Of a stretch of 64,000 bases of DNA, positions 8,984 through 63,503 are shown in pieces (positions within the stretch are counted from its first letter, which is position 1; each line of letters opens with the position of its first letter). This stretch comes from Chloranthus sessilifolius (lineage: Eukaryota > Streptophyta > Magnoliopsida > Chloranthales > Chloranthaceae), in NCBI GenBank assembly GCA_021018995.1, contig CM037591.1, positions 9,554,001 to 9,618,000 on the forward strand, in the 5' to 3' direction. Under the pieces are notes generated by a model that did not search any database, was not told where the DNA came from, and saw only the letters and a list, made by a program, of their open reading frames with translations. Both the position numbers and the translations under genes were made by a program.

Positions 8984-9142
8984 TGGCGTAACTAATAGTT
9001 GCGCCAGTGCTTTTTTTCCCTAGTTTGGCCTGCCGCAACTAATTGTTGCGCCAGTGCATTATTTTCTCGGTTTGGCTTGGCGCAACTAATAGTTGCGCCA
9101 GTGTAATTTCCCTGGTATTTTAGCCTGGCGCAACTTGCGCCA
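8984..9142. repeat. Tat palindrome cluster A (internal, 5' of the DUF7745-like ORF)
   Basis: Four copies of an 11-nt arm (consensus TGGCGCAACTA), one central base, and its inverse lie at 8984-9006, 9031-9053, 9078-9100 and 9126-9142. The last copy lacks the central bases. Deviations are mostly single C/T or G/A changes. The same word recurs at 27089-27159 and within the LTR at 29318-29541. Confidence 0.9.
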
Positions 9143-9601
9143 AACTAAAATCCCCCCTCTATGCCCATCTCAGACCTAATTGAGGGGGATTTCCACCCTT
9201 TTTGTTCGCTTTATATACATATATATCTGCACTTCCGACCATCAATGGTTTGTGAGTTATTTTGTTATGTGCAGGATTGTTCCTACATTGAGGCATGCGA
9301 CCCAAAAGACCCCCTCTACAGCCATCTCAGACCTACTTGAGGATTGATCCTACATTGAGGCATGCAACCCAAAAGGCCACTTTAAAAAAAAAAAAAAAAA
9401 AAAAGAAAGGGGGCAACGGGCAGACACATCCTGCAAAGAAACAAATACAGAAGGCAAGGAAACCATGGCATAAACTCAAAACAAAGTTAAAAAAATATTT
9501 TCAAAAGATACATGTCCAAAAAAAATAAATATATCATCCATCCCATAATGTCTGAATCCAAATTCAAAACTCTGAGTTTTAAAAAGCAAAAAACTAAAAG
9601 C
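9143..9601. other. Non-coding stretch with short direct repeats
   Basis: No gene was recognised. A 28-nt phrase (TCCTACATTGAGGCATGC followed by ACCCAAAAG) occurs at 9281-9308 and again at 9348-9375, period 67. A related CCATCTCAGACCTA phrase occurs near 9163 and 9322. A poly-A run of about 20 lies at 9383-9403. On the minus strand this is the 3' flank of the plant-mobile-domain gene. Confidence 0.6.
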
Positions 9602-10683
9602 CTATTCCTTGCTCGCCCCCTTGGACTTCTTGCGGTGGCGAGAAGAGCTCTGATAAGTCCTCATGTCCCCCACTCTAGACCATGCCTGCGAAATCCTACT
9701 GAGCAGGGAACGCGACTCCTTAGCCCGGGCACGCTGCAAGACACAGTCGAGGACAAGATCAGTCAAAGGGCCAATGATAATGAAAAGAGTGAGAGGATGG
9801 TACTCCGCATATTCCACGGCCGAGTTGAAGTCTTGCGATACAATATTCAGTTGTTAGAACAACCCTGAAAGCCTGTGCAGAAGGAAACTAAAATGAAGGA
9901 GAAGTGGCTCATCAGAAAATTTACCCCAGGGACCACCTTAGGAGGAGGAATGCGGGCCGCCTCGACAGAGAGTCGTGCCTGTCGATCTACATCAGCACAT
10001 AGGTCTGAGAGGAAGCCATCATCAAGACGCCGAAAGGTCCCGTAGGCTACAGACAGACCACCACCAAGGACACCCGCCTGAGAGGTACCCGATGGACCAG
10101 CACCTGATGAACCCTCGCTCAAGGGACCCGTGCCAGAAGGACCAGCACCAGAGGGATCTACCCCTGGCGTGTCAGCAGCACTCGGCCCACCTTCACCATT
10201 TGAACCATCCCTCGGAGCAAATTGTGAACCAGATAAGAATCTATTCAGATAAGATCAAGGCCGAGTAAAAGTGAAGGAGAAGCTAATCCAAGCTGAGAAG
10301 AAGTTACCTGACCAAGTGGGCCCCTGAACACAAGGAAATTAGCGCTAGGGACAAAACGAGGCAGGATGAACTGGTAGGGCAGGCACTGGTTCCAGGCATG
10401 ATAATCCCCAGGCACATCAAGAGCGCGAATGGGGAACCCATTGTTGAAGAAGGCCGCTGTCAACTCCTCGATACTACTAGCGGGACTCCAAACGTCAGCC
10501 GGGGGGTCTACGGGTATGGCGTAATAGCCCTGAAATTGGTGCACCACTCTCTCCCCTAAATAGTAGCATCTGGCCCACGCACCATAGAAGAAGACGACGC
10601 GGCAATTATTGAATAGGCGGGAGGCACCCACGACTACTCGATCCCAGAAGGGGGATGTTAGGTATGGATCAGGGAGGATCTAC

Positions 10684-10776
10684 TGAAAATCAAAAAGTGA
10701 GAGTGACCAAGTAAGCAACACCTCAATCAAAAGAAATGCCCAAGCTGAAAGTAAACAAAGGTTGAAAAGTTATCAC
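10684..10776 (-). other. Intron of the antisense PMD gene
   Basis: The minus strand begins GTGATAACTTTTC after ...CCTGAGCAG and ends in TTTGATTTTCAG before the next exon. It is 93-94 bases long, T-rich, with consensus GT-AG ends. Its survival inside a retrotransposon fits an antisense gene, whose introns cannot be spliced from the sense genomic RNA. Confidence 0.6.
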
Positions 10777-11209
10777 CTGCTCAGGCACCATAAAATCAAG
10801 CTGGGACCTTAGGCCCATTTTCCGGTACTTTAGGCCCACGTCACGGCGTTAGGCCTGATGCCAGTTGCTGAGGAGGGGATAGGTGAGCACCTCCGAGAAA
10901 GGGAGCGGGCGCCCAGGGTGAAAGTGGTGATATCCCCATACCTGAAAAAGGGGCATGGCACTAGAGCGAGTTAGTAACATAAATGGATCAGTAAAAAAAA
11001 AATGATGAATGGATGATAGTGATAGCAAAAGCAAAGGGGTGAGGAATTACCTCTAGGACGGCCCAAAATCACACGGCAGACTTCGAGTCCCCGGTCGTAA
11101 CCTGGGATAAGTTGTACATCAGCCAGGCGTATCCCACCCCTCCCCAGTCATGCCTGGGAACGTCGCCCCAATTATCCATCACACACAATAAGGCCAGGAT
11201 GACTTGTCC

Positions 11210-11214
11210 CTCGT
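11210..11214. repeat. Left target-site duplication of the Athila-like element
   Basis: CTCGT lies immediately before the LTR start at 11215; CCCGC (24937-24941) lies immediately after the other LTR. Three of five bases match and the two differences are C/T transitions, as expected for an old 5-bp duplication in methylated DNA. Confidence 0.55.
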
Positions 11215-13705
11215 TGTTGCTTCCCCAGCTGTGCTTCCTTTATTTGTTTGTCGTAAAAGAAATTTAAAATCAAAAGAAAACAGGGGATGAAATCAGCACA
11301 ACAGAGAAGTCCTAGACCTGCAAGATACAGGGTCCATTGTGGCAAGTTTTGATAAGTAAGAGTTTGTCCCACAGGGAAAGATGATCTACAACTCCAAGGG
11401 AGCCATCTCTAGTAGTCCCTCCAGATCTGACAACAGATCTAGCAGTCCTTAAGGGAAGGGAGTTTAAGGTCACTTAGTTTATAGATCCTAAGGTAGCCTA
11501 ATGTCTAAACTACAGAAAGGGTTGAGAGAATGGATGGAGTGTGGAAAATAAATATAAAAGGGTGAGAAGTATGTTATTGAGCCTAGATCAGAGGAGTTTT
11601 GTAACTCAGATTTAGATCTGATGTTATAGAAATCCTGTCTAATGGCTACGTTATTGCCACTGAGGAGAAAGAATCCAACCCATCTCTGTGCCATGATTCA
11701 ATCCCTTAAGGTTATAACCTGTCCACTCAAATGGTCACAGACTATCCCATAGGGGAACCACAATCCAGAGATGGGACAAAACAAGTTAATCATTGTAGGC
11801 ATTATTTCATCCAGGCTACCAGTTCAAGAATCCATAGGGAACCTCAACCTCTAAAGTTCTATGTGTGGGGCTAAGGCTGTATAGGACCATGATAGCCCAG
11901 ACACATAGAACCAGCAAGAGATTGAGTACAACCATCGATCTAGCTATCCATTGCTTGAGTGAGGCTACAATGGTTCAGTCACAAGCCTACAATCTCTATA
12001 ACCAGATCAGATCTAACATCTGATAGCGGATCTATACAAATATAGGGAGTCTCGCCTCAGATGCAATCTCCCACTGTGCTAATACAAGCTCAGGTGCAGA
12101 GAAGAAGGATCCATCTTGGATCGGTGGATTAGAATCACCCTAAGGCTATAACCTGTCCACTTGAATGGTCACAGACAATCCCAGAGGCTATCCTCCTCAC
12201 GGAGCCCAAGACAAAATAAGAATATCGCTGCCACCACCATGATCACAAGGCTACCAGCTCAAGCTTCCATGGGGATTTCAGATCTAGTGGGTCCTGTGGT
12301 GGGGCTAAGGCTGTATAGGACCATGATAGCCCAGACACACAGGTCACTTGGATCTGAGTGGCCCTTAGAATCAGTCCTCCATTGCTTTGAATCACAGCCA
12401 AAGCCATGGCGGATCACAAGGCAGCAACCTTGCACAGAGCATCTCACATTCAAACACAAATCTCATAATGTAAAAATCCTATTACAAAACTTCCATTAAA
12501 CTAGTTCAAAATGCATACAAAGACATAGCCAGCAAGTGCTGGACTATAGAGAGAAGGAAAAAGAAAAAGAAATTTACTTACAGCTATAAAAGAAAAGAAA
12601 AAATGATCTCATATCAAATCTCTAAGAGATGAGATGTGTTCCAAGATATCTAAACCTAAGCTAAGTATGGGTTTATATAGCAGTGGTGTGGCGGCACATT
12701 AGGGTTTGGAAATCCTAATTTTAACGATGCCACGTGGCCTAATAGTGATCCTTGGATGCCTCGGGGCGCATGCACGGAGATTTAAGCGTGGGAGTGCATG
12801 CCCTAATCACTGGAAATTCCCAGAAGGTCCTCTACTGATGCGATGGAAGTTGAAGTTCAGAGCTTCACTAGGTAGCTATTGTTTCCCAGACTTGTCGCGT
12901 GGTAGCTCTTGCTCTTCGCGAGGATGGTTTGACATTGAAGCTTCAACCATCGCGAAGTTGCCTTGGTTTGCTCTTCAGGCAGTCGCGCAGTAGAGAATTG
13001 CGCTCTCGTTGGATTGATCTTCGTGAGGATGGATTTGAATAGCGCGAGAACTGCGCGAGCACTTCTCTTCAATGGACTTTACAAGTTTCCTCACGAGGCT
13101 TTAATGAGTTCTGAATTGTGCGAGGTTCCATGTCTTAATTGATCTTCGTGAGGATGGCTCTGTCTTCGCGAGGATGCTTTCTTCTTGAATAGTGCGAGAA
13201 CTGCGTGAGGAGTTCTCTTCTGATATTGCATCCGCATCTCTTGCACGCTACACGAAGAGTCTTCACAGCTCTCCTTAGCCGTTAAAGCGAATGTGCAAGG
13301 TTGAGAGATGCGCTTTGAACCGCATTTAGAGGCTAGCGATGTGTTCTACTCTTGAGCTTCGCGAGAGTTGCGCGAGTTTGTGCTTCTGAAGCTCTTCAGT
13401 CACTCAACTGTGCGAGAAGTTGTTGTGAAGTCTTGGGAAGCTCAGTTGGACTGCGGGAGGCATATTTCTCCTGAATCCTCTAAAGCTTGGGTCAGCTGCC
13501 CGAGGCTCATTTCAGGTCTGGATTCAGAGTCCATCCTTCTGAGGGACTTCTGGTGCCAAAACAGGCTCCTTAGCAAGAATCCTGGCATTATTTCACTGCT
13601 GATTATTACCTACATAAAACACTTAACAAGAACTTATTAGATGGCTAAGGGTCTAATCAAAGGTTAAGTTAAGGGGTGAAAAGTGATACTTTTCAGGTCT
13701 TAACA
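11215..13705 (-). repeat. Athila 3' LTR (left copy)
   Basis: The LTR is 2491 bp and begins TGTTGCTTCC and ends CTTAACA on the + strand. It aligns over its whole length with 22500-24936, apart from a 54-bp net difference near 12250-12305. On the minus strand the U3 contains about a dozen CGCGAG-type words (12890-13505), and a TATA box TATATAAA lies at 12679-12672. Being the 3' LTR of a minus-strand element, its internal side (13706) carries the polypurine tract. Confidence 0.9.
12672..12679 (-). promoter_or_regulatory. TATA box in Athila 3' LTR
   Basis: The minus strand reads TATATAAACCCATACTTAG; the identical box occurs at the same place in the other LTR (23918-23911). Confidence 0.8.
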
Positions 13706-13717
13706 CACCCCCAAACC
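13706..13717 (-). other. Athila polypurine tract (3')
   Basis: The minus strand reads GGTTTGGGGGTG directly before the LTR start TGTTAAG. This is the expected site of plus-strand cDNA priming. Confidence 0.8.
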
Positions 13718-15353
13718 TAATCTTTGCTAGTCCCTTAGCAAAGCTACATTAAATCTACTGTAAAAATTAAATGCCACTTTCGTAGGGAGCACGGATACAT
13801 TTAGCATATGTACCAAGCCTTTTAAACCCCTAGGTGATCCCTAGTGGAGGAGTGAAGTCTCCTGAGGGTTTTCAGTGAAGACACCCATAAACTTCTCAAT
13901 GAAACAGTTAACAAAAGTGCAATATCATCAAGTGAGCAGTCAAGGAGCAGACTTAGTTTACTCTTGAATCAGTAAATATAAAAGAAATTTAATCAATTAG
14001 TTGCACAGTAATTTAAACAGCATAAACTTCTCATGACTGCACAACATTTCCAATCAGTTTACAACCACAGAAAACTGCACAAGTGTGTGCCAGCACTGAG
14101 CTCATCATCAGATCAAAAATTAGATTATAGGTCATACATAATGCATTCAAGATCAGACCCAAAAACTTTCCAGGGCATACTCTCATAAGGGTCTTGTTGA
14201 GGGGTTCACTTTCTCTCAGGCTCAAGAGCAGTTACATCCCCCAAATGGGTCTGTAAGCATGAGCATAGGCAAAGTTCTTAAGTGCTAACATCATTGACAT
14301 ATCCTCACCATAGATTGGATAACTCTTTATCTCCACATGACAGCTCACTCAACTTTGGATCACAAGGGCTTTTAATTAGGCTGGAATGTGGTTTATGGAG
14401 TGGGGTTAAAAATAATGGAAGGTTGAAAAGGGGTTCAAAATTGAGAAATCAGTAGGTGAAAGAGGTGATTCATGACTTCACCTTCTTGATTTTAGCTCCT
14501 TTCTTCTTTGAGATTTTCATATTTGAAGTGATCAGTTTCTTTTCTTGATTTCGATTTTCCAAAAGAAAGTTCCTCTTGACTCCTCTCATACTCCTCTTCA
14601 TTATTACTTTTGTTTCTTTTTTATGTATTTTTCTTCTTGTTTTTGCTTTTCTGAAATGCCACCATGTTCTCAGTTACCATACTGCCAGAATTTTGAGATA
14701 CTTCTTCTTCATTCACCTAATGTTGACCATAGCTAGTCCATCTTCCACTCTTTCTCCTTTACCTTCTAAATTCTCAGAGTGAGGGTAGACTGAATCAGGT
14801 TCATAGGTTCAGGTACAAGTACTCAGGTGTATTTTGAAGAAATTTAGGATTTAAAGCTCAAAGGGGGTATGGACAAGGGCAGTTGCTTTAGGGTTGGTCT
14901 TTTTAGGCTCAAACTGTCCAAGAGAAGGCCTTGATCCTTTCCTAAGTCTCATGAGTGCTGTCAGTTGTTTCAACTTGGAGTTGCCTAACTCCTAGTGAGC
15001 ACAGTGACTCAGCCAGTCCTTAGAACTAGAAGAAATTGCCTTAGTTACTCCTCAAAGAATAGAAAAAATTTTTGTAGGCCCAATTCTCACTGGTTATGGT
15101 CTTCCTTTGAACTTTTAAGTATGTCCTCACCTTTTTCTCTCTCTAATGATTCACTAAGTGCTGATACAAGTGAGTTTCCTTGGTGATCTCATCATGGAAA
15201 TGTGAAATATTAAAGTTTATAATGTCTAAAGTTTGCAGAAATTATAAATTTCTTATTTGTCATGATTCTTAAGTGAACATAGATCCATTTTCATATTACT
15301 CACATGACTCTGCTGCACTTAGGTTAACTATTCCATTGGTAGGGTTTACCTGC
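13718..15353 (-). other. Athila region between extra ORF and 3' LTR, no gene recognised
   Basis: In Athila elements this space can hold an envelope-like ORF. Here only short frames exist, none with a transmembrane or envelope-like pattern that I recognise. The + strand is T-rich at 14510-14700. Any former ORF is decayed beyond recognition or was never present. Confidence 0.6.
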
Positions 15354-15368
15354 CACACCCCCAAACCT
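15354..15368 (-). other. Second copy of the Athila polypurine tract
   Basis: The 15 bases CACACCCCCAAACCT (+ strand) are identical to 13704-13718, which spans the 3' polypurine tract and LTR junction. It lies 1.65 kb inside the element, just downstream (minus strand) of the small extra ORF. It could be a central polypurine tract or a leftover of an older 3' end. Confidence 0.5.
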
Positions 15369-15565
15369 ATGAGGAGCAGTGTCCTCACTGGTTCAAAGTG
15401 AATGTGTAGCAGATATATTAATGGTAAAAAGAAAAGAAAATAACATGGAACAAAACACATAGAAATAACAAAAAGAACAGAAAAAGAAAAAATCTTTAAC
15501 TAAAAACAAAAAGAAAAAAAGTACAAAGAAAAAAAGTAAAATCCTAAGAAGAAGGTGGATAGGGT

Positions 15566-15811
15566 TCAAGAAGATGGAGTCTGGGGAGGTGGTGGGGGAG
15601 GCTGAGTAGGTGGAGGAGAGGAGGGAGATGGTGCTATTTTCCGCTTCTTCATTTGCTTGTCCTTTTTCTTTTCTTCCTTCTCCAGGATGCGCTGGACCTC
15701 CTCGTATTCGTCCCAGAGGAACTGTAGGGGGTCCGGCTCCTTAGGTGGGGGCGGATCCAACCACATCAGATAAAATTTGTTAGGCAGAGCATTAGGCTTA
15801 TCATCCGCCAT
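15566..15811 (-). CDS. Small extra ORF of the Athila element (81 aa)
   Basis: The ATG at 15811 (minus) gives MADDKPNALPNKFYLMWLDP, an acidic/proline segment, then EEYEEVQRILEKEEKKKDKQ and KKRK, and a proline-rich tail PPPTQPPPPPPQTPSS, to the stop at 15566-15568. The middle is a likely helix with a basic, nuclear-localisation-like KKRK. The frame stays open upstream to 15970, but ATG 15811 is chosen because a TATA-like TTTAAATATA lies 70 bases upstream (15890-15881) with a CT-rich leader between. A CGCGAG-type repeat cluster sits immediately further upstream. It is intact, unlike pol. I do not recognise a family. Confidence 0.5.
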   Translation of the reverse strand: MADDKPNALPNKFYLMWLDPPPPKEPDPLQFLWDEYEEVQRILEKEEKKKDKQMKKRKIAPSPSSPPPTQPPPPPPQTPSS

Positions 15812-15880
15812 TGTTAGGACTAGGGCAGGACCGCAAGGGGAGAGGAGAAAGGATGAGATGAATATGAAAGGGGCTCCCTG

Positions 15881-15890
15881 TATATTTAAA
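15881..15890 (-). promoter_or_regulatory. TATA-like element upstream of the Athila extra ORF
   Basis: The minus strand reads TTTAAATATACAGGG, about 70 bases before ATG 15811 and followed by a CT-rich stretch resembling a plant 5' leader. With the CGCGAG cluster upstream it looks like an internal promoter. Confidence 0.45.
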
Positions 15891-16005
15891 GACGAGGATG
15901 GTGGAAGATGAATCGATGTAATAACATCCAAGTTGCCGCAATTAATTGAGATTGAGTTGGGAAATGACAAATTATCGTAATCCAGGGAAATGACAAATGC
16001 ATGTG

Positions 16006-16306
16006 ACTCGCGCAGCCGGGCAAGGGGATCACGAGATAACTGAATCTCGCGATGATGGATGTTGGAGCTTGAAGTGCGCGAGAGACTCTGCAGTATTTGT
16101 TGAAGCTCGTGACAGCAAAATAAATGTTCTATGTGAATTGCGCGAGAGACTCTGCAGTATTTGTTGAAGCTCGTGACAGCAAAATAAATGTTCTATGTGA
16201 ATTGCGCGAGAGACTCTGCAGTATTTGTTGAAGCTCGTGACAGCAAAATAAATGTTCTATGTGAATTGCGCGAGAGCTTCCCAAATCTCAATTTGGAATG
16301 TGCGAG
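16006..16306. repeat. Athila CGCGAG cluster, internal copy (includes 64-bp tandem repeat)
   Basis: The words CTCGCG, TGCGCGAGAG and TGCGAGG recur at about 16007, 16045, 16075, 16140, 16204, 16268 and 16299. The same words fill the U3 of both LTRs. The cluster includes three identical 64-bp units (16076-16139, 16140-16203, 16204-16267), each starting GCGCGAGAGACTCTGCAG. Confidence 0.85.
16076..16267. repeat. Three identical 64-bp tandem repeats
   Basis: Exact period of 64; I see no difference among the three units. A partial fourth (GCGCGAGAG) follows at 16268. This perfect identity contrasts with the decayed surroundings. Confidence 0.9.
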
Positions 16307-16541
16307 GGCTTAGTACCAAACAGGGGCAATACAGGTAGTGCAGCATACTCATAAAAAATATTCAAACAATATGCATTCAATTCGAAAATCAGTAATTCGC
16401 AGAAGAAGAAGAAGAAATCATACCAATCCTACATAAACTTTATCAAGCTCAACATATTCAGACTCCACATAAACACTACAATTTCCTAAAAATTATTGAA
16501 GAAACAAAAGTGGTATAGTACAACATGGACACAACTGTGGG

Positions 16542-17660
16542 TCAGGTAGATGTAGGGGTCCCATGAAAATGAATAGTGTTCATAGGGTCAGCAGGTTTTT
16601 CGATACAAGGCTTAAGCCTCTGACCATTCACTTTGAAGGTCCTCCCAGATTTGGGATCCTTGACTTCCACAGCACCAGATGGGGAAACATTTAAGACAAC
16701 ATAGGGACCTTCCCATCTGGATTTTAATTTGCCAGGAAAGAATTTTAGTTTGAAGTTGAATAACCAAATCTTACCACCAGGTATGAGGCTTTTTCTCAGC
16801 AAGCCCTTGTCAAAGAAAGCTTTGGACCGTTCCTTGTAGATCCTGGCATTGGTGTAACCATCCATCCTCAGCTCATCCAATTCAGACTGCTGCAATGACC
16901 TGTGATGACCAGTAGAAGTTAGGTTCATATTTAAATTCTTAATGGCCCAATAGGCCTTGTGTTCTAACTCTACTGGGACATGGCAAGCCTTACCATAGAC
17001 CAGTCTGAATGGGGACATTCCAATGGGAGTCTTATAGGCAGTCCTATAAGCCCACAGTGCATCAGTTAGTTTATCGGCCCAATCTCTTTTGTCAGTCCTT
17101 ACTGTTTTCTCAAGGATGTGCTTAATCTCCCTATTGGAAATTTCAACTTGCTCACTTGTCTGTGGGTGGTAGGGAGTAGCAATCCTATGGGTCACAGAAT
17201 ATTTCTTGAGCAAGCTCTCGAAATTTCTGTTGCAGAAATGGCTACCCCCATCACTGATAATAGCTCTAGGGGTTCCAAATCTGGAGAAAATATGTTGCCT
17301 TACAAATTTGAGGACCACCTGGTTATCATTGGTTCTTGTGGCAATGGCTTCTACCCATTTGGAAACATAGTCCACTGCCACTAAGATGAACTGATAACCA
17401 TTAGAAGGAGGAAAGGGGCCCATGAAGTCTATACCCCATACATCAAACAGTTCTACAACAAGGATGGGCTACAAAGGCATTGAATTTCTTTTGGACTGCC
17501 CTCCTAATTTTTGACATCTCTCACATGCCTTACAGTGTGTATATGCATCTTTGAATAAAGAAGGCCAGTGAAACCCACACTGCAGGACCTTGTCAGCTAT
17601 TTTTCTCCACTAAAGTGGCCTCCACAGCCATTTTCATGGCACATGGCCAGAATACAGGGG
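16542..17660 (-). pseudogene. Athila integrase
   Basis: A 293-codon open frame (17423-16542) starts [20 protein letters not shown] and contains [11 protein letters not shown] (second catalytic Asp) and [20 protein letters not shown] (catalytic Glu). The first Asp is in WGIDF just upstream (about 17427-17441), in the same frame. The C-terminal part has the GPY/F-like [20 protein letters not shown] module and ends [18 protein letters not shown]. The zinc-binding HHCC region lies upstream at about 17470-17690 (CILAMCHENGCGGHFSGEK) but is broken by stops. The catalytic core is one of the best-preserved stretches of this element. Confidence 0.88.
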
Positions 17661-17663
17661 ATA

Positions 17664-18640
17664 TCACTTTCGGGAATACATCTTCGGATGATTTGGTCTG
17701 CAATACTTGTATAGGCAAGGTTTATCCCAGAAAAAATATTTGACCTTTGAGAAAAATAGGTCTTTGTCCATTTTGGTCCAGTGGGCAAGAATCTTTCCTA
17801 TAACTAGATAATTGACAATGTGTGCAAACCAAGGGACCAAGGATTGGATGGCAAATAATTGCTCATCCGGAAAGGCATCATTTGTAGGACCATCAAGGCA
17901 TTTCTCCAAGACAATTCTGGACAAGTGTTCAGCCACCACATTCCCCACACCCTTTTTATCCTTGATTTTGATGTCAAACTCTTACAGTAGGAGTATCCAT
18001 CTAATCAGCCTAGGCTTAGCATCTTTCTTGGACAATAGGTACTTCAATACTGAATGGTCAGTGAAGATTACAGTTTTAGATCCTAGTAGATAGGCTCTAA
18101 ATTTGTCAACAGCATAAACCACTACCAGAAGCTCTTTCTCAGTTGTGGTATAGTTCAAATTTGAGCTTGACAAAGTGATTTGCTGACATAAGCAATGACC
18201 ACAGGCAGCTTATCCTTTCTTTGGCCCAAAACAGCACCTATTGCCAAGTCTGATGCATCACACATCAGCTCAAAGGCAGGGTATAGTCTGGTGTTTGGAG
18301 TACAAGGGCAGAGGTGAGGCATATTTTTAATGTTTCAAAAGCCTTAAGACATTCAGCAGAAAAGTGAAAGGGCACATCCTGGCAGAGCAGGAGGCACAAT
18401 GGCTTAGCAATTTTGCTGAAGTCCTTAATGAATCTCCTGTAAAATCCTGCATGCCCAAGGAAAGATCTTATTTGTTTGACTATTTTTGGAGGGAGCAAAT
18501 TGGCAATGAGGTCAACTTTGGCCTTGTCTACCTCAAGCCCTTCTTTAGAGACTACATGGCCCAACACAATGCCTTGTGTTACCATGAAGTGGCTCTTTTC
18601 CTAGCTTAAGACCAGATTGGTCTCCTCACATCTTTGCAAA
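17664..18640 (-). pseudogene. Athila RT connection and RNase H (fragmented)
   Basis: 18585-18265 holds GIVLGHVVSKEGLEVDKAKV and IRSFLGHAGFYRRFIKDFSKIAKP, the usual RT thumb/connection. RNase H follows as MCDASDLAIGAVLGQRKD (about 18262-18209, another frame) and at 18173-17982 as NLNYTTTEKELLVVVYAVDKF and VIFTDHSVLKYLLSKKDAKP. 17948-17664 is the RNase H to integrase linker (NVVAEHLSRI). Several stops and frame changes separate the pieces. Confidence 0.8.
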
Positions 18641-19325
18641 ACTAGGCTGAGGTGTTGTAGACACTGGCCAAACCGCCCCTATAGATGTAAAAATCATCCA
18701 TAAAAATCTCCAAAAACTTGTCAATCATATCAGAGAATATGACATACATACACCTCTGAAAAGTGGCTGGTGCATTACAAAGCCCAAAAGGCATCCTTCT
18801 GTAAGCAAAGGTGCCAAAAGGACAGGTAAAGGTGGTTTTCTCTTGGTCTTGAGGATGTACAGGGATTTGGTTGTACCCTGAGTATCCGTCTAGAAAATAG
18901 TAAAAAGTTGTTCCAGCCAACTTATCCAAAATTTGATCAATGAAGGGGAGAGGGAAGTGGTCCTTTCTGGTCTTAGAGTTGAGCTTCCTATAATCAATGC
19001 ACACTCTCTAGCCAGTGGTCTCCCTGGCTGGTCTCAACTCTCAAGTTTCAGTTTTAATCACTGTTATGCCAGATTTCTTGGGCACCACTTGGATAGGTGC
19101 CACCTAGTTAGAATCAGAGATAGGGTAAATCACCCCTGCATCCAGCAATTTGATGATCTCCCTGGGGACCACTTCCTGCATGTGAGGATTTAACTTCCTC
19201 TGCATCTCCCTAGAGGGTAGTACTCCCTCCTCAAGATGAATCCTGTGCATGCAGATTGATACATCTATTCCTCTCAGATCGGCAATGGTCCAACCAATTG
19301 CCTTCTTGTGCTTCCTCAAAACTGT
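18641..19325 (-). pseudogene. Athila reverse transcriptase
   Basis: 19319-19104 encodes HKKAIGWTIADLRGIDVSIC, a classic Athila RT N-terminal phrase, followed by LLDAGVIYPISDS. After stops, 19004-18642 gives CIDYRKLNSKTRKDHFPLPF, YYFLDGYSGYNQIPVHPQDQ, RMPFGLCNAPATFQRCM and the catalytic box FMDDFYIY. The catalytic aspartates are kept, but stops near 19100, 19055 and 18640 break the protein. Confidence 0.88.
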
Positions 19326-19612
19326 TAGTAATTCCTCTTCCTGCTCATTGGTAAGAGAGGAAGAGATGATTACAGGAAGCTTATCTCCTTTCTCAAGGAA
19401 GGCATATTTTAATGTTTCTGGGAGCTTCTTGAGTTCCAGATCAGGAGCTTATTGGGTGGATGGCAAAATTGGTGCATTGGAGGTTGGAGGAAGAGGCAGC
19501 AATGTAGGTTTCCAACTGGAATGCTGCACTGAGCCCACAGAAGACTTCAATGTGGTCATGTCTTTTGGTATCACATCTGGGCTCTCTTCCTCCACCATGT
19601 CCCAAATTTTAA

Positions 19613-20676
19613 CTAAATCCACTCCAGCAGAGTGGGCAATTCTTCTTCTACAATTTCCTCTAGTACATCCACTGCAAAGCTCTCCTCATTGTCCATCTGA
19701 GGGTACTTTGCACCGTTATACACATTCAGCTCAACTTTCATATGTCCAAAAGTTACCTCTATTACTCCAGACCTGCATTGAATGCATGCATTGGCAGTGG
19801 CCAAGAAAGGCCTGCCCAATATAACAGGTATGGGATTTGGGCTATTCTTTACCCATGTCCAAAACTAAGAAGTCAGGTAGAAAACTTATCCACCCCCACT
19901 AAGACATCCTCAACCATTCCCAGAGGTCTCCTCTCAGACCTATCAGCCATCATTAGCACAATGGGGGTAGCTTTTAGCTCCCCCAAACCTAGCTGCAGAT
20001 ATACACTGTATGGCAATAGGTTAACACTGGCTCCAAGGTCTAAAAGGGCTTTTCCAATTGTATGGTCTCCAATTACGCAGGGAATAGTGGGTATCCCTGG
20101 ATCTTGCAACTTCTCAGGCATTGATATGTTAAATAGATAATTCACTGTATCAGTTGCAAAGACCTTTTTGGACACATGGCCTCTAGCTTTTCTCTTTTGG
20201 GTGCAGAGGTCTTTTAGGAACTTTGCATAGGCTGGGACCTGTTTAATTGCCTCAAGCAGGGGCAAATTGATTTTCACATGCCTGAAGGTCTCCATCATTT
20301 CCTCCATCTGGGCATTCCCTTTATCAAAAGGGACAGGACCATCCAAAGCTTGAGGAAATGGCAGTTGAGGTACTGCTGGTCCCTCAACTGCTAGCCCATG
20401 ACTATACTTCTGTTTTTTTCTATTTTCATGTTTTTCCTCCTGCTGAGGCTCAACTACAGCCTCTTTATTTTTCTCCTGCTGCAAGGTGGCAGGCAATTCT
20501 TGGCTTTGTGTTCCAACAACATCTCTATCACGCTCATTTGCATCATCTGTGGAAATGACCTCTGCTGGTCTGTTACCCACCTGATTGTCTATCAGCCTGC
20601 TAGACCTTAGGGTAGTAACAGCATTGGTTCCCCCAAAACTTGAGGAAGCTTCTTGGGTTAATAACTGGGTTAACAA
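19613..20676 (-). pseudogene. Athila gag-pol junction and aspartic protease
   Basis: 20676-19873 encodes a charged linker (QQEKNKEAVVEPQQEEKHEN), then HVKINLPLLEAIKQVPAYAK and FLKDLCTQKRK, conserved in Athila polyproteins, and the protease active site ALLDLGASVNLLPYSVY. Athila proteases normally read D-L-G-A here, so this is not a mutation. It continues MVEDVLVGVDKF and, after one stop, 19819-19613 gives MGRPFLATANACI and an acidic tail. Function: processing of the Gag-Pol polyprotein in virus-like particles. Confidence 0.88.
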
Positions 20677-20989
20677 GGTGGCAACCTCCCTTCATCTCTC
20701 CTAGCCAAGGCATTTGAAATTTGGCTTATCTGTTCTTCCATTTTCTTGATGCTCTGACCATGAGAATTCACAGTCTGAGCCAAGGAACCCAGGTTTTGTA
20801 GTGAGGTCAAGACCTAGTCCTCGAAAGAAGTATTTCTAGGTTGAGATGTGGGTAAGACCAATTGATTTTGTTACTGGTGGGGCTGCTGATGGTGCTGGAA
20901 GTTAGACTTAGGAGCATACCCTTGATTGAACTACTGCTATGGCCTTTGAGGTACAGCCAACATCTACTGGGGCTGCATATAATTGTCTT

Positions 20990-22008
20990 GCCTCCACCTC
21001 AGATTTGGGTGGTCTCTCCATTGGTAACCAGCATTTTGATGCTGGTAACCATATGGTTGTCTGTTGTAGCCTCAGATTGTTGCTGGCCAAAAGATTGTGC
21101 AACAGCAACATGTTCTAAAACCAATTCGAGATATTGCCCTGCAGATGGGCACTCCTCAATTGTGTGCTGTGGGGACTGGCATATCAGACATGCCTCCGCC
21201 ACATGAGCAACCCTTCTGGGTTGCATCACAGTCAGTAATTTGTCAAACTTCATAAAGAGGTTTGCCATCTGTAGCTGCAGGTCATTGTTCCCAGACACCT
21301 CACAAACTTTTCCTCTTGTCAATGCAGCAGGCCCCACTTTTGACTCAGACTCGTGACTAGTTCTTTCCAAGGATAGCTTTTGAAAAGCATTTTCACTAAT
21401 CACCTCAAACAATTCCCATGCCTCATCAACAGTTTTGTGCATGTAAGTGCCACAACAAGAGGCATCAACCATATCTCTACTTTTTTCATCAATCCCATTG
21501 TAGAAACTTTGATCAAGCTACCAGTCTGGGATCTTGTGGTGGGGGCATTGTTTGAGCATTCCCTTAAACCTATCCCAGGTTTGATTAAAATCCTCAGTTG
21601 GGGCCTGGGAAAAAGCAAGAATTGCCTTCCTCAACTGCTAGTTTTGGTCTCAGGGAAGAACTTGGTCAGGAACTTGGTCTGCAGGTCTTTCCATGAAGCA
21701 ATGCTATTGTTGGGAAGAGTGGTCAACCAGGTACTAGCCCTATCCTTCAGAGAGAAGGGAAAGAGTCTGAGTCTAGTAGCCTCAGGTCCCAAACCAGTGA
21801 TATTAAAAGTGGTGCACAAGGCTAAGAACTGGTCAATGTGCTTGTAAGCGTCCTCCTTGCTAAGCCCATGGAAAGAGGGTAGCATCTGGATGATTGAAGT
21901 CTTTATTTCATAATTCCCCTGAACATCAGGGAATTGAATGCTAAAAGGGGAGTTATAGTCATCCGAAGCATTCAACTCCTTGAGAGTTCTGGGTTGTTCT
22001 TCACCCAT
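20990..22008 (-). pseudogene. Athila gag with CCHC zinc knuckle
   Basis: ATG 22008 (MGEEQPRTLKELNASDDYN) starts the gag; frames also extend upstream to 22203 but without a better start. Capsid phrases are IIQMLPSFHGLSKEDAYKHI and RLRLFPFSLKDRASTWLTTL, then ILAFSQAPTEDFNQTWDRFK. A zinc knuckle CLICQSPQHTIEEC (C-x2-C-x4-H-x4-C) lies at about 21195-21154. Stops at 21631-21633 and near 21520 interrupt it. Binds and packages element RNA. Confidence 0.88.
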
Positions 22009-22475: not shown

Positions 22476-22493
22476 TCCCCGGCAACGCCGCCA
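22476..22493 (-). other. Athila primer binding site (tRNA-Asp)
   Basis: The minus strand reads TGGCGGCGTTGCCGGGGA, matching the complement of the plant tRNA-Asp 3' end (TGGCGCCGTTGCCGGGGA) except one base. It sits six bases from the 5' LTR, the usual Athila arrangement. Confidence 0.85.
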
Positions 22494-23519: not shown

Positions 23520-23555
23520 ACCATGGTCACAAGGCAGCAGCCTTGTGACCATGGT
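23520..23555. repeat. Inverted repeat in Athila 5' LTR
   Basis: The arm ACCATGGTCACAAGGC and its perfect inverse are separated by AGCA. The other LTR has a different, longer sequence here, so the structure arose after insertion. Confidence 0.8.
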
Positions 23556-25733: not shown

Positions 25734-25734
25734 G

Positions 25735-32408: not shown

Positions 32409-32410
32409 GT

Positions 32411-51465: not shown

Positions 51466-52019
51466 AAAGATTCTGTTCAAGTAAGTTCGTTCTTTCTTAT
51501 GTGAGCGATTTATTATAAAAAATAAGGAGAAAAATAATACTTAACGATGTGGGACTATTATGTCACATGAAACTGACAATAAGCAGAAAAAACATCAATC
51601 TTCTAAGTTGGCAGTAAGCCAAATTTCATGCGTCACTCTATCGTAACCGTTTGATATATTGATGCACTTTAAGAATCAACAAAAAAATAACACCGAGAGG
51701 TAAACAAAATCTCCATAATTTGATACAAAGCAGGCAACACCTTGTAAAAGACTTTGTGATACAAAGGAATCTCCATAATGTTACTTTCCTAACCGTCAAT
51801 TAAACACCAAAATAGTGTTTAAATGATCGTGAGCCATCACTGATTTAATCTGTGGGTGACATGTACCGTCAAATGTTAAAAAATGCAATTTTTACATTTT
51901 AAAAATATTTTTTATTTTTAATCATTTCTATTTAATTATTTCCCTTTTTCCAATCCTTTTCAATTGTTACCCTTTTTGGCCAATTTTTTCCCTTGCTGTT
52001 TTATTTCCCGTACTATGTC

Positions 52020-52113: not shown

Positions 52114-52934
52114 CACTACGTGAAAAAGCTAAAAAAATCACTGCCCTAAACAGTTGTAAAAAAAACAATAACTTTTTTTTACCGTTGTAAAAAAATATGA
52201 GAAAACAATAAAAACTCACTTGCCGTCTTTTTTTTCATTGCCTAGGGTTTCGAAAAAGGAGATGGAGGCTACGGCTTCGAAGAGGGAGATGGAGCGGGAG
52301 GGAGGGGAGGACGCAGTCTAGGGTTTCGAAGAGAGAGATGGAGCGAGAGAGAGGGGAGGAGCCGGTCGCCGCGTTCTTTGGAAATGAAAATGAAATTTTG
52401 GTTTCACGACATATATTAGCGGGGGATCAGGGTTAACAAATTAAACCACTGTCTTAGCATAATAAACAATCGGTTTTGGCAATGGCTTATTATACTACAG
52501 TTGGGGCAGTGATTCTTTTAATCCTATATAGGCTTGCCTGGCCAAATTAAATATATAACCCTACGCAATGTGTTCATCCATGCTTGAAATGCAAGTATAT
52601 AGCAATGGTTTCAATGAAATTTAAAACCATTGCTATATACCCTTCTAGCCATGTTTATCTAAATTTAATGCATCCCAGTGATAACTAAAAATCTGATAAC
52701 TGATAGGTAAATCACGCTCTCAGGTCTCCTTCCATAGACCATTTTCAAATCTAATTAGTAGGAACCAACAAATATCAATCTCTTTTTTGTTGATTTTGCA
52801 GCACAACTAGCTAAAAATGCAGAACTGAACTAATATAAAAAATAACCCTACTGCAACGAATATTTTTAATCAACTTTATTAATAATTTAAAGATTACGGA
52901 CTTCAAAATCCAACCAATCATTATCTAAAATATC

Positions 52935-56480: not shown

Positions 56481-57262
56481 TGAAGAAGATAAAAAGGTGT
56501 ACCTTGGATTGTGAAGCGGACCGACCTTGTTTGTGTAGAGAGGCACTAGATCACCAACTTTATACTTGTGATTTGATGCATTCGAGATTTCTCTCCAAAT
56601 CCAACAACATTTATTCCTTTGAGATTTTGCAATTTAAATCTCTACCTAGGGTTTTGATGAGGGAGATGGAGGCTAGGGTTTCGAAGAGGGAGATAGAGGA
56701 AAAGGAGAGATCTCCTATTGCAAGCAATTAGAAGAGAAATTTCGTAGCTCACCAGAGAAGAGGCTAGGGTTCGTGGAGAGAGAGGAAGAGGAAAGGGAGG
56801 CTAGGGTTCCGTTCAGCTCATCGTGCAAAATCTAGCATTCACTGGCTCCCGATCTGTCTCAAATCCTCTGATCCATCTCGATCCACCATATAACAACTTT
56901 GAAATGGATTACACTGATGAGCTAAACGGAAAGGATGGGTGATTTTGAGAGATACTCGTGCAAAATCTAGGGTTTGTAGAGAGAGGGAGAGGAAGAGGAG
57001 AGAAGTTGCTTCAGAGAGAAAGAAAAGACTAAGGTAGACAGCAGTTATGATAGAAATATAAAGAGAGAAAAGTTGGAAGTAGGGTTCCCGATAGATTTGC
57101 ACGTGACTTGAGGAAAGAGATGCACGTAATGATGGTTAAGGATTTAAACCACTGTCTTACTATAAACCATTGGATTTGACAGTGGATTATTATACTACTG
57201 CTTGGGCAGTAGTTCTTTTTTATATTGCAAAAGTTGTTTTTTGGCTTTTTGACGTAGTGCTA

Positions 57263-58860: not shown

Positions 58861-59540
58861 CAAACCGACTTAAATCTGAACTTAAAATTCTTCTCAAGTT
58901 ACTATATCATGAGAGTAGGAATAATACCGATGGGTACCCCTAACTAACCATCGTCGTTCAGTGAACCCTTTTCAGGAGATATAACAAGCCCCTGTGTTAT
59001 GAGGGTAACTTGTGTCATATAGATACACAGTTAAATAGGTTCCAAAACAAACTCACGAATTTCACACTGTGTCGGTCACGGATATCCCACCGTGTCGGTG
59101 GGGATTCATTCACGAGAACCTTAAATCACATGCCGATTCTAATACATATCTCAGATGTAGATTCTAGTATATAATTCAGGTGCAGAATTCAGGATTCAGG
59201 ATTCAAGTTCATATTGAAATGTATTCAGAAATCATGGTTCAGAGTTCATGCTAATCAAATTCAAGACAGATTCAGATCAAATTTGGAGTTCATGATATAT
59301 TTGGAAACAAATTCAAATGTATTCGGAAAACAAAATCATATTCTATCAAGAAAAATGCAATTAATATTGAGGTTCCCCTACCTAGACTCGGATCTGATCC
59401 AAGCTATCAAATGTCCTCACCAAAGGTTCCCACACGTACCCTAGATTTAAATAGCACCATACTATGTGTTAATAGTGTCTAAAACAGACAAAAGTTTCCC
59501 AGAGTTTTTCCAAAGAAAAATAAAGAAAGCCAGAAATAGG

Positions 59541-59730
59541 GGAAAATCGATCGTTTGATTTCATTTTTGAACGTTTGATTTCAAATTCGAACGTTCAATT
59601 TTCAAATCGAACGTTCTATTTCTTCAAAAATTGAGCGTGTCAGTCTATGCCAAAATCGATCGATCGATTTCAAAATTGATCGTTTGATTTCAATTTCGAA
59701 TGTTCGATTTTGGATTCAAACGTTCGATTC
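59541..59730. repeat. Tekay-2 palindrome cluster, LTR copy
   Basis: Eight units of the type (T/A)TCGAACGTTCGATTT or ATCGATCG-TTGATTT, spaced about 19 bases, in two groups of four separated by about 33 bases (59622-59652). Includes a perfect 18-bp palindrome AAATCGATCGATCGATTT at 59653-59670. It lies downstream of the LTR TATA box in the direction of transcription. Confidence 0.88.
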
Positions 59731-60231: not shown

Positions 60232-60531
60232 CAAGGCTAAGCAAAACAAATATCATGATATTTTCTAAAAATATCATGATATTTATATTATAATTCTTAT
60301 CCACAAAATTTAAATTTAACTGAGTGTTGAGTACGCATACACGAGTCGGTGTACAAGTCATTGGCTAAGGCCTTTACCATATCTAAATCAAAATTCTTTT
60401 CACCAAAATATTCTTGATATTTAATTAGTCCAATAATTCAAGATCAAATCGTGTGACTTGTCCGAGCACGCATACCGAGGTGATTGTGTTCGATTTTCAA
60501 ATTTTCGGGATATTACATTCTCTCCTCCTTT

Positions 60532-61425
60532 AGAAATTTTCGTCCTTGAAAATGCTATCTGTGAGGTTTAGTTTGAAAGGTAGTATGTATCCAAAAGCGT
60601 ATGCATGCAAACTGCGCAACAGAACCCAATCCTTTAACTAAATTAAAATTAAAGACGAATTCATTCCAAAATCGTATCATATTAGACTTATCTAAAATGT
60701 AATATGTAACAGTCACCACTAAGGTCACAAGTGCCTACAATTGAGGAACATCACTCGAAAAATTAGGACAACAGTTCAAGTCTACGGTTAACCCTCGTCC
60801 TAAACAAAAATTCTTCACATAGCATATTCAAGATTATCATAGTTTTAATTAGAATGGGTCATAGTGCGATAGGTTTCACCAATCACGCTTTTCAAGGGAT
60901 GAAATCCGTAGTAACCTGGATATACTTCTTGTGACATCCCATACTGCCATAGAGGAGTTGCATCCATAAATGGATGCCTACATTCCAAGTGTCACGTGCC
61001 TGGGAAAAAGACCCCACCGTGACTCAAGCTTAACAGTCATGTATCTTATCATATTACGTTTATGTATCAGACACACATATTCATTCTGAATTGAGTCGAA
61101 TCATGCAGGTATTTTCAAAATGGATCTAATCAAACAGGTATTTTCCAAATCTGATATCTTGCAGAATTACAAACCACTATAAAAACTACAAAACATGCCA
61201 ATATATACATAGCAAGGCACATATGTAAATGCAAACAAAAGATCATATATTCACACCGATCAAAGGATACCAGTCATAACTATTTCACATTACAAATTAA
61301 TGATATAATTAAGCAAGGATAAGTAGAGCCGCCAGGTTCCAATAATTCATCAAACATTTAAAATATTTACTTTCTCAAAAAAAAATTTAATCTAAAAAAG
61401 AAATTCCGTATAATCCCTAGTTTCC
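60532..61425 (-). other. Tekay-2 spacer between extra ORF and polypurine tract
   Basis: No coding sequence recognised. A GTCACGTGCCTGGG phrase and AT-rich stretches only. Confidence 0.5.
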
Positions 61426-62731
61426 CTAATCCTCCAAATCATCAGCTGGTCTAGCATCCTGATTAGCCACGTCGTTAGTGCCGGATGTAGATGTGTGAGT
61501 AGTGGAAGTTCGTATCTCAGCCATGTATGTAGTGTATGCAGCAGGATAGGCATGTTGCATCAGGTGGGTCAGTACCCCCCTGTGGAACTCCAACTCCCTG
61601 CTCATCGAGTTCGTATGTTGAGTCAGCGTATGGATCTGCTGGCTCATCGCCGACATCTACTGGGTGAACTCAGATAAGGTGAGTACATCATCCTGTGTGG
61701 CCTATAGCTGGATAGGTGGTGGCATCTGAACTGGGGCAGGCTGCTGTGGCTGGTTTGTGGGTGCGGGTGGTTCTGGATCCGGAGCGACTTGTTCAGCAGC
61801 TTCTTGATCTGCTGCTTCTTGGTCAGCTGCTTCTTGGGGTGCTTTCAGTAACTGTATATAGTTCTTCCTCCAATCTTTCAATTAATATGTCTTTACATTG
61901 GCAGTGGACTTGGGTTCATCGTCCAAAATCTCATAGTCATCCCCGCCATCGTAATCCTCAATCATGAGAGAGTGAAGATGAGCATATGGGATTTCATTTG
62001 CAGGGGCTTTCCTTGCTTTACCCATTTTCTCACGAGCCGTGATGATACCCCTAAACACAACCTCCGGAGCACTGAACCATTTTTCTTGGAAATCGAAAAA
62101 TAACGCCTATTGAATGATGCCTCTCCTTTCTTATTTGTGCCCAAACGGGTAAAGGCTACACTTAAATATCATATCGAGCATCCACATTAAATCCAGTAAT
62201 TGGGCTCGTGTTACAGATTGCCCAGACCCCATGTAGTCCATGAATTATTATTTCAATGACATCTTGGAAACCCACTGGTTTGGGGTTTGGTTCCAACAAA
62301 CACATGGTTTGTGAATAATCGGTAGGACAACCCCCCGCCTTGGCGATATCGTCTAGATCAAACTCATAATCTCGCCCATCTAATGATGTATAAATCTTCT
62401 TCCCATCACCCCGACGTATATGTTGGTAAAACAGTCGTACTAGTCGGGGGTAAAAATGGGTGTGAAAAGGTTGGAGTAGGGTTCCCAACCCAGCTCTCTC
62501 TAAGTAATCACGTGCCCACTAAGTGGTCGCCTGCTGTTCAAAAAGCTTAGGGTCAAAAGACCATTCGTCGTCAAAGTCCTCCGCATTCCACCACTCATTT
62601 AGTTGTTCACGTGGTGGAGGCGGTGGTGGTGGTGGTTGTGGTGGAGGTGTAGGGTTCTTCAAAGAGCTGGCCTTAGATGCAGGCCGCTTCGAAGTAGGGT
62701 TCTTGATAGCCGATTTCTTTTTAGGACCCAT
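61426..62731 (-). pseudogene. Extra ORF of Tekay-2 (homologue of the Tekay-1 extra ORF)
   Basis: ATG 62731: MGPKKKSAIKNPTSKRPASK, proline run (PPPPPPPP), then FYPRLVRLFYQ, GRDYEFDLDDIAKAGGCP, and after a frame change near 62170, MLDMIFKCSLYPFGHK, FQEKWFSAPEVVFRGI and PYAHLHSLMIEDYDGG. The C-terminal part has three QEAAD/E repeats, a proline-rich segment, helix HTLTQHTNSMSRELEFHRGV and MQHAYPAAYTTYMAEIR, ending with an acidic tail to the stop at 61426. These line up with HYYPHLVRLFYQ, MWPLDAIFRKNLFPLGH and CHAYPQTYRDCLA of Tekay-1. Several TAG/TAA stops and at least one frameshift. Same strand as its pol. Confidence 0.72.
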
Positions 62732-63503
62732 TAGAATCGAAAGTAAACTTAAATGAAAGCACTAAAATGTGAAGAAACAACCAAGCAAGTTAGGGTTTTA
62801 CCTTTTTAAATGATTTAGAATCCAATTCCTTCACCAAAATCAAGCTTGGTTGGATCCCGAAAGTACAATGGAATTCTCGCTCGAAGAAGGAAAGAACCCT
62901 AAAAAAACTCAAACAGAAATTGCAAATGAGGGAAATAAACCCTTGGTTTGAACTTAAGTCGTCAGAATCGATCATTCGATTTTGATATCGAACGTTTGAT
63001 TTAAGATTTGAACGTTCGATTTCTGATTCGAACATTCGATTTTATTCCCAAAAATACTTAGAAGCTTGACAAATCAATCGTTCGATTTTGAAATCAACCA
63101 TTCGATTTAGAATTCGAATGTTCGATTTTGACAGAAAATTTCAGAATTGAAAATTTTCTGTTTTGAGGACTTTGAGGCCCCAAACATGCTTTAAACATGT
63201 ACCCTTAATGCGGTACATACCCATACATCACCTAAAATGTACCACCGACCTCTCGACCCTTAAAAATTCTCTATGTTTATGTCAATACAAAGAATACTCG
63301 ATAATTTTCAGTTATATAATACATGTTCACTTAATTTGGGGCAGACCTCATAATACGACTTTGTAATACCGAACAAAATGAAACCTTACTCCGCATATAT
63401 ATTGAGAAATCCACATACTATACAAGTCACATTGATTGCAATTCAAAAATCAAAGTACCATTACATTCCTTAAACTATAATTAGTTATAGAAAATTTTCA
63501 TTT
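62732..63503 (-). promoter_or_regulatory. Tekay-2 spacer with internal palindrome cluster (62965-63130)
   Basis: Seven units of the GAACGTTCGATTT/ATCGATCATTCGATTT type, again spaced about 19 bases and grouped four plus three with a gap of about 30 bases (63043-63071). It lies 230-400 bases upstream of the extra ORF ATG. The rest of the spacer is AT-rich and non-coding. Control function is inferred. Confidence 0.6.

Follow-up and report, generated by a model that had tools for sequence, protein, structure and literature searches.

Extra genes in at least two families of nested Ty3/gypsy retrotransposons of Chloranthus sessilifolius appear to have promoters built on the private word arrays of their long terminal repeats

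How the extra open reading frames (ORFs) of plant Ty3/gypsy retrotransposons are expressed, and what role they serve, is an open question on which a nest of long terminal repeat (LTR) retrotransposons in Chloranthus sessilifolius bears. The stretch analyzed here, hereafter the window, comprises 64,000 nucleotides of contig CM037591.1 (assembly GCA_021018995.1, forward-strand positions 9,554,001 to 9,618,000). Within it an Athila element (11214-24937) lies inside a Tat element that runs from the window start to 30555; the host site of Tat appears to be the 5' LTR of a Tekay element (Tekay-1, 30556-42378), the first 500 bp of which are missing there; and a second Tekay element (Tekay-2) lies on the minus strand and extends past the right end of the window. 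A sequence-only reading of this DNA had proposed that four unrelated elements each carry a private cluster of CpG palindromes twice, in the LTR and just 5' of an extra ORF, and that a copy of the LTR module, possibly bound by a protein that the element encodes, drives the extra ORFs or provides them with a shared RNA leader signal.

We find that, in at least two families, the private word array of the LTR also appears to underlie internal TATA promoters of the extra ORFs. The arrays look like promoter-proximal sites read by a DNA-binding factor, and the words like a shared on-switch for an element and its accessory genes. It is probable that each element possesses a cis-regulatory module of its own, in which short words recur as an array, and that this module stands both in the LTR and at each accessory gene's internal promoter and drives the two. 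A sequence-specific nuclear factor would bind the words and thereby switch on, or keep open, the promoters for the genomic RNA and for the accessory genes, such that both promoter types would fire together even where the accessory gene is antisense to gag-pol; in Tat, the modules would serve promoters on both strands. The observations beneath this proposal are the sharing of private words, their position, a TATA box 3' of the internal module in Tekay-1 and in Tat gene b, and Tat word arms that are more alike than the spacers between them. From these we infer that the internal promoters function, and that they and the LTR alike are under the control of the module.

Word clusters in the LTRs and 5' of the extra genes

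The clusters are readily recovered without foreknowledge of their words. When 160-bp windows were scanned for CG-containing 8-mers that recur or stand inverted, with no knowledge of the words proposed earlier, the ten top merged peaks (scores 21-71) were ten of the eleven regions claimed; the next peak scored 16, and the eleventh region (27089-27159, two palindromes) scored 9. All eleven regions contain words as described, namely TGGCGCAACTA in Tat, CTCGCGCA in Athila, GCTCGCTCGAGCGAGC in Tekay-1 and TCGAACGTTCGA in Tekay-2, and the words are restricted to the clusters, which hold 19/20 of the Tat arms in the window (0-1 mismatch), 8/8 Tekay-2 words (1 mismatch) and 6/6 Tekay-1 words (0-1 mismatch). 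The words also proved private, as had been supposed: similarity between LTR and internal site, expressed as a Smith-Waterman z against 200 dinucleotide shuffles, was high within elements and low between them. The Tat LTR cluster gave z values of 23.8 and 11.8 against its internal clusters (the former for that of gene b), which gave 15.6 against each other, and the corresponding values were 13.3 for Tekay-2, 7.3 for Tekay-1 and 5.0 for Athila (0/200 shuffles as high), while the top value between elements was 4.8 (Tat LTR vs Athila LTR, 1/200 shuffles as high). Of 29 tandem arrays checked for a second site at E 1e-3, those of Tat and Tekay-2 alone had one, setting aside A-rich or AT runs, LTR partners and one other repeated element; in a control, 10/200 random 150-mers found a second site. 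A BLAST comparison at E 1e-3 matched the Athila internal array to no LTR, and the link of this array to the LTR is therefore drawn from the shared word and the z of 5.0.

The description of these regions as CpG palindrome clusters holds in part. A CpG is present in all of the words and dyad symmetry in three of the four, but the Athila word is directional and Tat has no CpG enrichment. CpG density is exceptional in the clusters of Athila (observed/expected 1.0-1.2, vs 0.14 elsewhere in the element), Tekay-1 and Tekay-2 and not in those of Tat, by which a CpG island is ruled out as the common feature. We found no protection of cluster CpG after insertion (27/49 kept in clusters vs 11/25 outside), and as such active copies must keep or renew their sites, whether by selection or by repeat turnover.

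All five extra genes have their cluster on the 5' side, with 168 bp (Tat gene b), 195 bp (Athila), 216 bp (Tekay-1) and 234 bp (Tekay-2) from cluster edge to ATG. Given two noncoding sides per gene, five out of five would arise by chance about 1 time in 32, so the window is insufficient by itself to settle the position. Two details of the earlier proposal require amendment: "four unrelated" elements was too strong, since the extra ORFs of the two Tekays are homologous, and "twice" was too few for Tat, which has sites at the LTR, gene a and gene b and a further one in eight relatives, and is better described as having one cluster per gene. In line with its caveat regarding the LTR, the cluster precedes the LTR TATA box by 283 bp in Tat and by about 210 bp in Athila, and lies downstream of it in Tekay-2.

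Internal modules and their TATA boxes

For Tekay-1 the position was settled, as far as sequence can do so, by copies of the element elsewhere in the genome (2.17 Gb in 32 contigs searched). The internal cluster of this element (37829-37967, plus strand) consists of GCTCGCTCGAGCGAGC-like words, palindromes of CTCGC/GCGAG half-sites, and both it and the LTR modules (30653-30902 in the 5' LTR, 30556-32408, and 40640-40890 in the 3' LTR, 40040-42378, which starts TGTAATAACC; both plus strand) end in GAGGAACAG. Immediately beyond is a TATA position (37969-37977, plus strand), followed by the extra ORF as two open pieces (38183-39448, plus strand) that are Transposase_32-like at a score well under the curated cut-off. 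A genome search with this ORF gave 39,911 candidates, of which 150 were scored (54-100% identity). The 30 best matches, the window's own included (72-100% identity), all keep 2-9 exact half-sites in the same place, so that absence of the internal cluster from most members, which would have refuted the earlier proposal, is not what these loci show. In 26/30 a TATA box follows the last half-site on its 3' side by no more than 60 bp (usually 13 or 18 bp), vs 173/3000 random windows. Furthermore, the string of a half-site, GGAACAGAC and TATATAAGG (up to 3 mismatches) matched the genome 121 and 112 times on searching, vs 0 and 0 for reversed controls. Among 100 such cluster-plus-TATA sites listed, 49 sit 87-274 bp (median 170) 5' of a listed extra-ORF match on the same strand, some of these partners being only 55-57% identical, whereas no site precedes such a match on the opposite strand and none follows one within 600 bp. 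For the remaining 51 sites no partner appears in the list of 150 extra-ORF matches, itself a small share of the candidates.

Five LTR stretches were fetched for Tekay-1 relatives. The three in which the LTR was reached have the same kind of words there and at the internal site, and the remaining two (L058, L059) proved to be other sequence, from which no pair could be formed. At L059:453-693, 3' of a Tekay-1 relative's extra ORF, there is a fifth word cluster, composed of nine directional AACCTATCGA-like words; the element to which it belongs has no BLAST match in the window. A Tekay that has no extra ORF was also encountered (L001, BMWJ01000031.1), in which 58 bp separate the chromodomain match from an LTR that ends before the cluster zone; the contig, 3.8 kb long and part of an assembly of Streptomyces clavifer, consists of plant-type Tekay DNA and probably reflects plant contamination. 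No protein relative of the Tekay-1 extra ORF was found outside the C. sessilifolius genome at E 1e-3 (85 candidates).

The second family with TATA boxes at an internal module is Tat, whose two antisense genes both look like plant mobile domain (PMD) genes with one cluster each. Gene b (7371-8816, minus strand; ATG at 8816, frame broken near 8603; PF10536 at E 3.9e-12) is preceded by a cluster of three 23-bp palindromes and one short one (8984-9142, minus strand), and a TATA box, CCTTATATG, lies about 25 bp past the cluster (8953-8958, minus strand). Palindromes, a CCTTATAT TATA and the gene start occur in the same order in 4/4 aligned copies, the window's among them, and the cluster is 5' of the gene in 3/3 fetched copies that carry it. 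Gene a is interrupted by Athila. Its 5' part (25042-25734, minus strand; ATG near 25734) covers PMD profile positions 1-106 at E 1.4e-8 and 34.7 bits, 0.2 bits under the PF10536 cut-off of 34.9, and its inferred 3' part lies past the insertion (9602-11213, minus strand). In two relatives, L020 and L021, the same parts are contiguous in the order cluster, gene a, cluster, gene b, preceded in L020 by the LTR and its cluster, and because its parts appear there uninterrupted and in the same order, the Tat of the window is very probably a single element. The two palindromes ahead of gene a (27089-27159, minus strand) have counterparts in 4/4 fetched copies that carry the gene; a candidate TATA (TTTAAA) is present in the window copy and in L020 and absent in L021. 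Those Tat antisense pieces that were scanned against Pfam gave PMD or nothing of note, with no PF04195 (TRP28), and no protein relative of gene b was found outside this genome at E 1e-3 (7996 candidates scored).

The Tat 3' LTR (28942-30555, plus strand, TG...CA), which ends where the Tekay-1 LTR starts, has relatives in 15/16 fetched stretches (69-88% identity). Its cluster (29318-29541, plus strand) comprises three 23-bp palindromes with arm TGGCGCAACTA plus two half-sites; the 11-bp arms face each other across 1 bp, and lone half-sites occur as well. The LTR TATA box, CTATAAATAGAG (29824-29831, plus strand), is identical in 8/8 aligned LTRs, including that of the window. Across four gene b promoters and eight Tat LTRs, column identity is 89-90% in the arms, 67-68% in the spacers within clusters and 81-85% in the downstream flanks. 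The best alignment of the LTR module with an internal one runs along the same DNA strand even though their genes point in opposite ways, as orientation-free sites would allow. Eight Tat copies have a further cluster 770-929 bp inside the presumed 5' LTR, before the first long ORF (gag-like by eye); these copies were picked by word pairs and by having the inner-LTR site, and thus give no frequency. The palindromic word, at up to 3 mismatches, has 51,866 forward and 51,699 reverse matches in the genome, presumably for the most part one set of sites read from either strand, and with so many copies the modules could also affect host genes. Viral contigs gave no exact match to the Tat word and no relative of the Tekay-1 reverse transcriptase or of the Tat or Athila pol pieces.

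Tekay-2 has a broken extra ORF (61510-62731, minus strand) that is homologous to that of Tekay-1 (34% and 51% identity over two pieces, E 7.8e-25). Its fifteen 12-bp words recur with a 20-bp period, eight TCGAACGTTCGA-like words in the 3' LTR cluster (59541-59730, minus strand; two groups of four) and seven, laid out alike (4+3), in the internal cluster (62965-63130, minus strand), and the two clusters are 73.7% identical over 171 bp (E 1.5e-17). CpG transitions account for 16/24 departures from TCGAACGTTCGA, as expected from methylation decay. The LTR starts near 60517 and has its TATA box at 60228 (minus strand). A genome search with this ORF (150 of 30,888 candidates scored) led to one upstream stretch that was examined, L061, in which the internal array is present also. 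The two Tekays thus have a common plan, with a module in the LTR and another between the chromodomain and the extra ORF, and different words. A GGCGGGATATCCGTGACC-like repeat is common to the LTRs of both (31434-31483, 41412-41468 and 59053-59099), and a related array was seen by eye (43490-43805) in a third Tekay-like LTR remnant (42379 to about 44652); unlike the private clusters, this repeat is lineage-wide and was seen only in LTRs.

In Athila the word CTCGCGCA stands in the sense orientation in 31/33 instances. The 5' LTR (22499-24937, minus strand; 90.9% identical to the 3' LTR) has a cluster (24130-24740, minus strand) of 15 directional words at no more than 1 mismatch, with 41 CpG (observed/expected 1.15), and the 3' LTR (11214-13706, minus strand) one of 11 sense words and 1 antisense word (12890-13505). 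The internal cluster (16006-16306, minus strand) is a 64-bp unit in 3.2 copies that are 99% alike, ahead of a small ORF (15569-15811, minus strand) of 81 codons, proline-rich and with KKRK, for which no Pfam family was found under E 0.1. For this ORF one TATA-like site was seen in the window copy.

In Tekay-1 (38120-38183), Tekay-2 (62731-62806) and Tat gene a (26880-26886), the stretch from the internal cluster to the ATG has a splice-donor-like AG/GTAA, which suggests spliced accessory mRNAs; in Tat gene a the splice-like sites make a 5'-UTR intron likely between the cluster and the ATG.

Taken together, the sequence lends good support to the proposal that a copy of the LTR module drives the extra ORFs in Tekay-1 and Tat gene b, whose modules have a TATA box directly on their 3' side, and weaker support to it in Tat gene a and Athila; for Athila and Tekay-2 a promoter role would follow by analogy. 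The other half of the proposal, a shared RNA leader signal, is disfavoured for Tat gene b and Tekay-1, as their internal modules are upstream of the TATA box and so probably outside the mRNA, although the LTR site of Tekay-2 is compatible with it.

A number of observations weigh against the promoter reading. In Tekay-2, no TATA was found from cluster to ATG save a TTTAAA at 62810, 155 bp past the cluster, nor was one found after the cluster of the same type in L061, and the LTR cluster is 3' of the LTR TATA. In Tekay-1, the internal TATA of the window's copy is degenerate and the LTR has no clear TATA box (the 5' LTR remnant has just TTTAAA, at 30586 and 31409). Together with the placement in Tekay-2, the latter implies that the role of the words in the LTR may differ. 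In addition, LTR-pair divergence outside CpG is higher in the cluster than outside it (0.085 vs 0.049 in Athila, 0.073 vs 0.053 in Tekay-1), and the internal modules of Tekay-1 copies match their own LTR no better than the LTRs of other copies. LTR and internal words do agree within Tekay-1 and within Tekay-2. Lastly, the contrast of arm and spacer in Tat is somewhat inflated because arms were defined by similarity to the word, the selection of Tat relatives by word pairs biases the LTR and leader counts, and the Athila internal cluster was characterized in the window copy alone.

Comparable systems and what may read the words

The plan itself is already known from the Sireviruses, a Ty1/copia genus, and is here extended to Ty3/gypsy. 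In the portions of the work of Bousios et al. 2010 that we drew upon (PMC2829016), element-specific, symmetric, CpG-rich RM boxes are described, in many copies, near the LTR TATA and just 5' of ENV; of 13 Sireviruses with such words, the internal set is present in 9/9 having ENV and absent in 4/4 that do not, and an internal ENV promoter was argued for by the authors, who did not conclusively identify it. As in that system, an extra gene in C. sessilifolius has one cluster on its 5' side and the LTR has another. Sireviruses have a sense ENV and a CGG-CCG core in all but one, in contrast to the other words observed here, to the presence of antisense genes as well and, in two families, to a TATA box beside the internal module.

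As to the factor that binds the words, our estimate places host factors close to an even prospect and an element-encoded protein somewhat behind them, and holds it unlikely that the answer is something other than these two. That host transcription factors read the words, the families having settled upon different host sites, would be a refinement of the promoter reading, and one that we hold plausible if short of even. In favour of host factors, Sirevirus elements that have no ENV still have LTR words, and the CGG-CCG core is common to Sirevirus words across distant hosts (PMC2829016). In the window itself, E2F offered a candidate. The E2F-like consensus TTTSGCGC has three matches, each inside a Tat or Tekay-1 cluster or no more than 5 bp away from one; of the 13 matches to the looser TTSSCGC, six are at clusters, which total 2978 of 64000 bases. 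The matches are, however, few among dozens of words, with none in Tekay-2 and one loose match in Athila, and E2F was rejected as a unifying host factor on that ground; nor would any single host factor explain the four words.

It is also possible, by analogy with VANC, that an accessory protein or its partner binds the element's own words and activates the element or removes its silencing, which again would refine the promoter reading. In favour of such an element-encoded factor, the words are private and the extra ORFs are homologous but diverged: words differ between Tekay-1 and Tekay-2, and their extra ORFs are about 35% identical vs 66% at the integrase end, protein and words having both changed fast. 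VANC, whose words are the closest analogue in function, is described as binding short private words in tandem arrays of noncoding DNA (PMC5735166), and the feature of private noncoding arrays that differ between related elements is found here in Tekay-1 vs Tekay-2. Likewise, word arrays, an accessory gene and differing words in related families are described for VANDAL elements (PMC5735166, PMC10398659), although these are DNA transposons in which binding and demethylation have been demonstrated, and the PMD and Transposase_32-like proteins are not VANC. Clades of gypsy-encoded PMD proteins exist, an anti-silencing role has been speculated for MULE-captured PMDs, and the host relatives MAIN and MAIL1 function in silencing and gene expression (PMC5418596). 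Against this, 4/13 Sireviruses with LTR words have no ENV, and their LTR words thus need no accessory gene (PMC2829016); two Tekay families amount to a single comparison in which word turnover could be repeat drift; and an AlphaFold model of a Tekay-1 extra-ORF piece, from a two-row alignment, was of no use (pLDDT 39.8). In a fuller version, which we regard as doubtful, the PMD proteins of Tat and the Transposase_32-like proteins of Tekay would each recognise the words of their own family, both in the LTR and at the promoter of their own gene, and so form a private positive loop that keeps only that family unsilenced, words and protein changing together. The arrays provide a concrete DNA ligand against which each accessory protein can be tested.

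Passive spread of family-specific repeats through slippage, template switching and recombination, with no selection, is improbable. Retand elements commonly have, between pol and the 3' LTR, tandem arrays that are specific to a family and of unknown function (PMC11963269), the near-identity of the Athila internal repeats marks them as recent, and both the faster divergence of clusters after insertion and the lack of copy-level matching in Tekay-1 would be in keeping with it. Yet such spread would not be expected to give the fixed position seen at 49 of the 100 listed Tekay-1 sites, 5' of a listed extra ORF with none within 600 bp on the 3' side, nor a module beside a TATA box, nor Tat arms more alike than their spacers. 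Less probable still is that the palindromes act as hairpins of RNA or DNA, whether at the RNA level or by giving rise to small RNAs, an idea put forward for the Sirevirus LTRs of maize. Although 110-nt windows under -40 kcal/mol are enriched in clusters (54/330 vs 112/6059 outside; -50.7 to -65.0 kcal/mol in Tat and -43.8 to -50.1 in Tekay-1) and Sirevirus palindromes are matched by small RNAs (PMC10760457, PMC5311732), Tekay-2 reaches just -33.1 and -37.1 and Athila -37.8, -37.9 and -41.0 kcal/mol, the Athila words are directional, Tat has lone half-sites, Tekay-2 words show 1 compensatory double change vs 22 one-sided ones, and the Tat gene b and Tekay-1 internal modules probably lie outside the mRNA.

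Turning again to the promoter reading, other plant elements share parts of the arrangement. Grande has gene23, an antisense gene with its own promoter (PMC7264820); the Tat PMD genes are similarly antisense between pol and the 3' LTR, with a predicted upstream promoter (TATA in 4/4 gene b copies). Retand has tandem arrays in the same region but usually TRP28, where PMD is found here (PMC11963269). Words common to the LTR and a gene promoter are not described for either in the portions of these sources consulted, nor are control regions in that of gypsy-encoded PMD proteins, which occur in Ty3/gypsy as in Tat (PMC5418596). In sunflower, Tekay and Athila elements have extra ORFs also, one Athila sense ORF being partly Transposase_32-like, but the Tekay extra ORF is 5' of gag-pol, not 3' as here, and control words are not described in the sections drawn upon (PMC11728184). 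The literature that we searched held no recognised account of words common to a Ty3/gypsy LTR and an accessory-gene promoter. The arrangement suggests that unrelated retroelement lineages arrived separately at the same circuit. The DOWN motif (CATGCAGTTT at MORC1, PMC9899485) bears no resemblance to the Tat word.

Identity of the elements and the surrounding sequence

The lineage names Tat, Athila and Tekay come from the sequence-only reading and are consistent with the domains that we found, the assignment being by domain content and order. Tekay-1 has Retrotrans_gag, RVP_2 and RVT_1, with SH3_Tf2-1 and a weak Chromo downstream; Tat has RVT_3 ahead of a weak rve; and Athila has rve and gag. 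By domain order, the three would be of the Ty3/gypsy type and not members of the Ty1/copia Sirevirus genus. The putative target duplication of Athila, CTCGT/CCCGC, is alike at 3/5 positions and hence weak.

Several minor features were also observed. A G-patch domain (PF01585) is present at 1049-1756, in the region of the Tat polyprotein, and a fragment of a pectate lyase gene (PF00544) at 45749-46207 on the minus strand. A 580-bp unit is duplicated in tandem at 50306-51472, the two copies being 98% identical. Two short direct-repeat pairs, 4.4-4.7 kb apart, occur at 52242-52519 and 56646-57219, and are possibly the old LTRs of another element.

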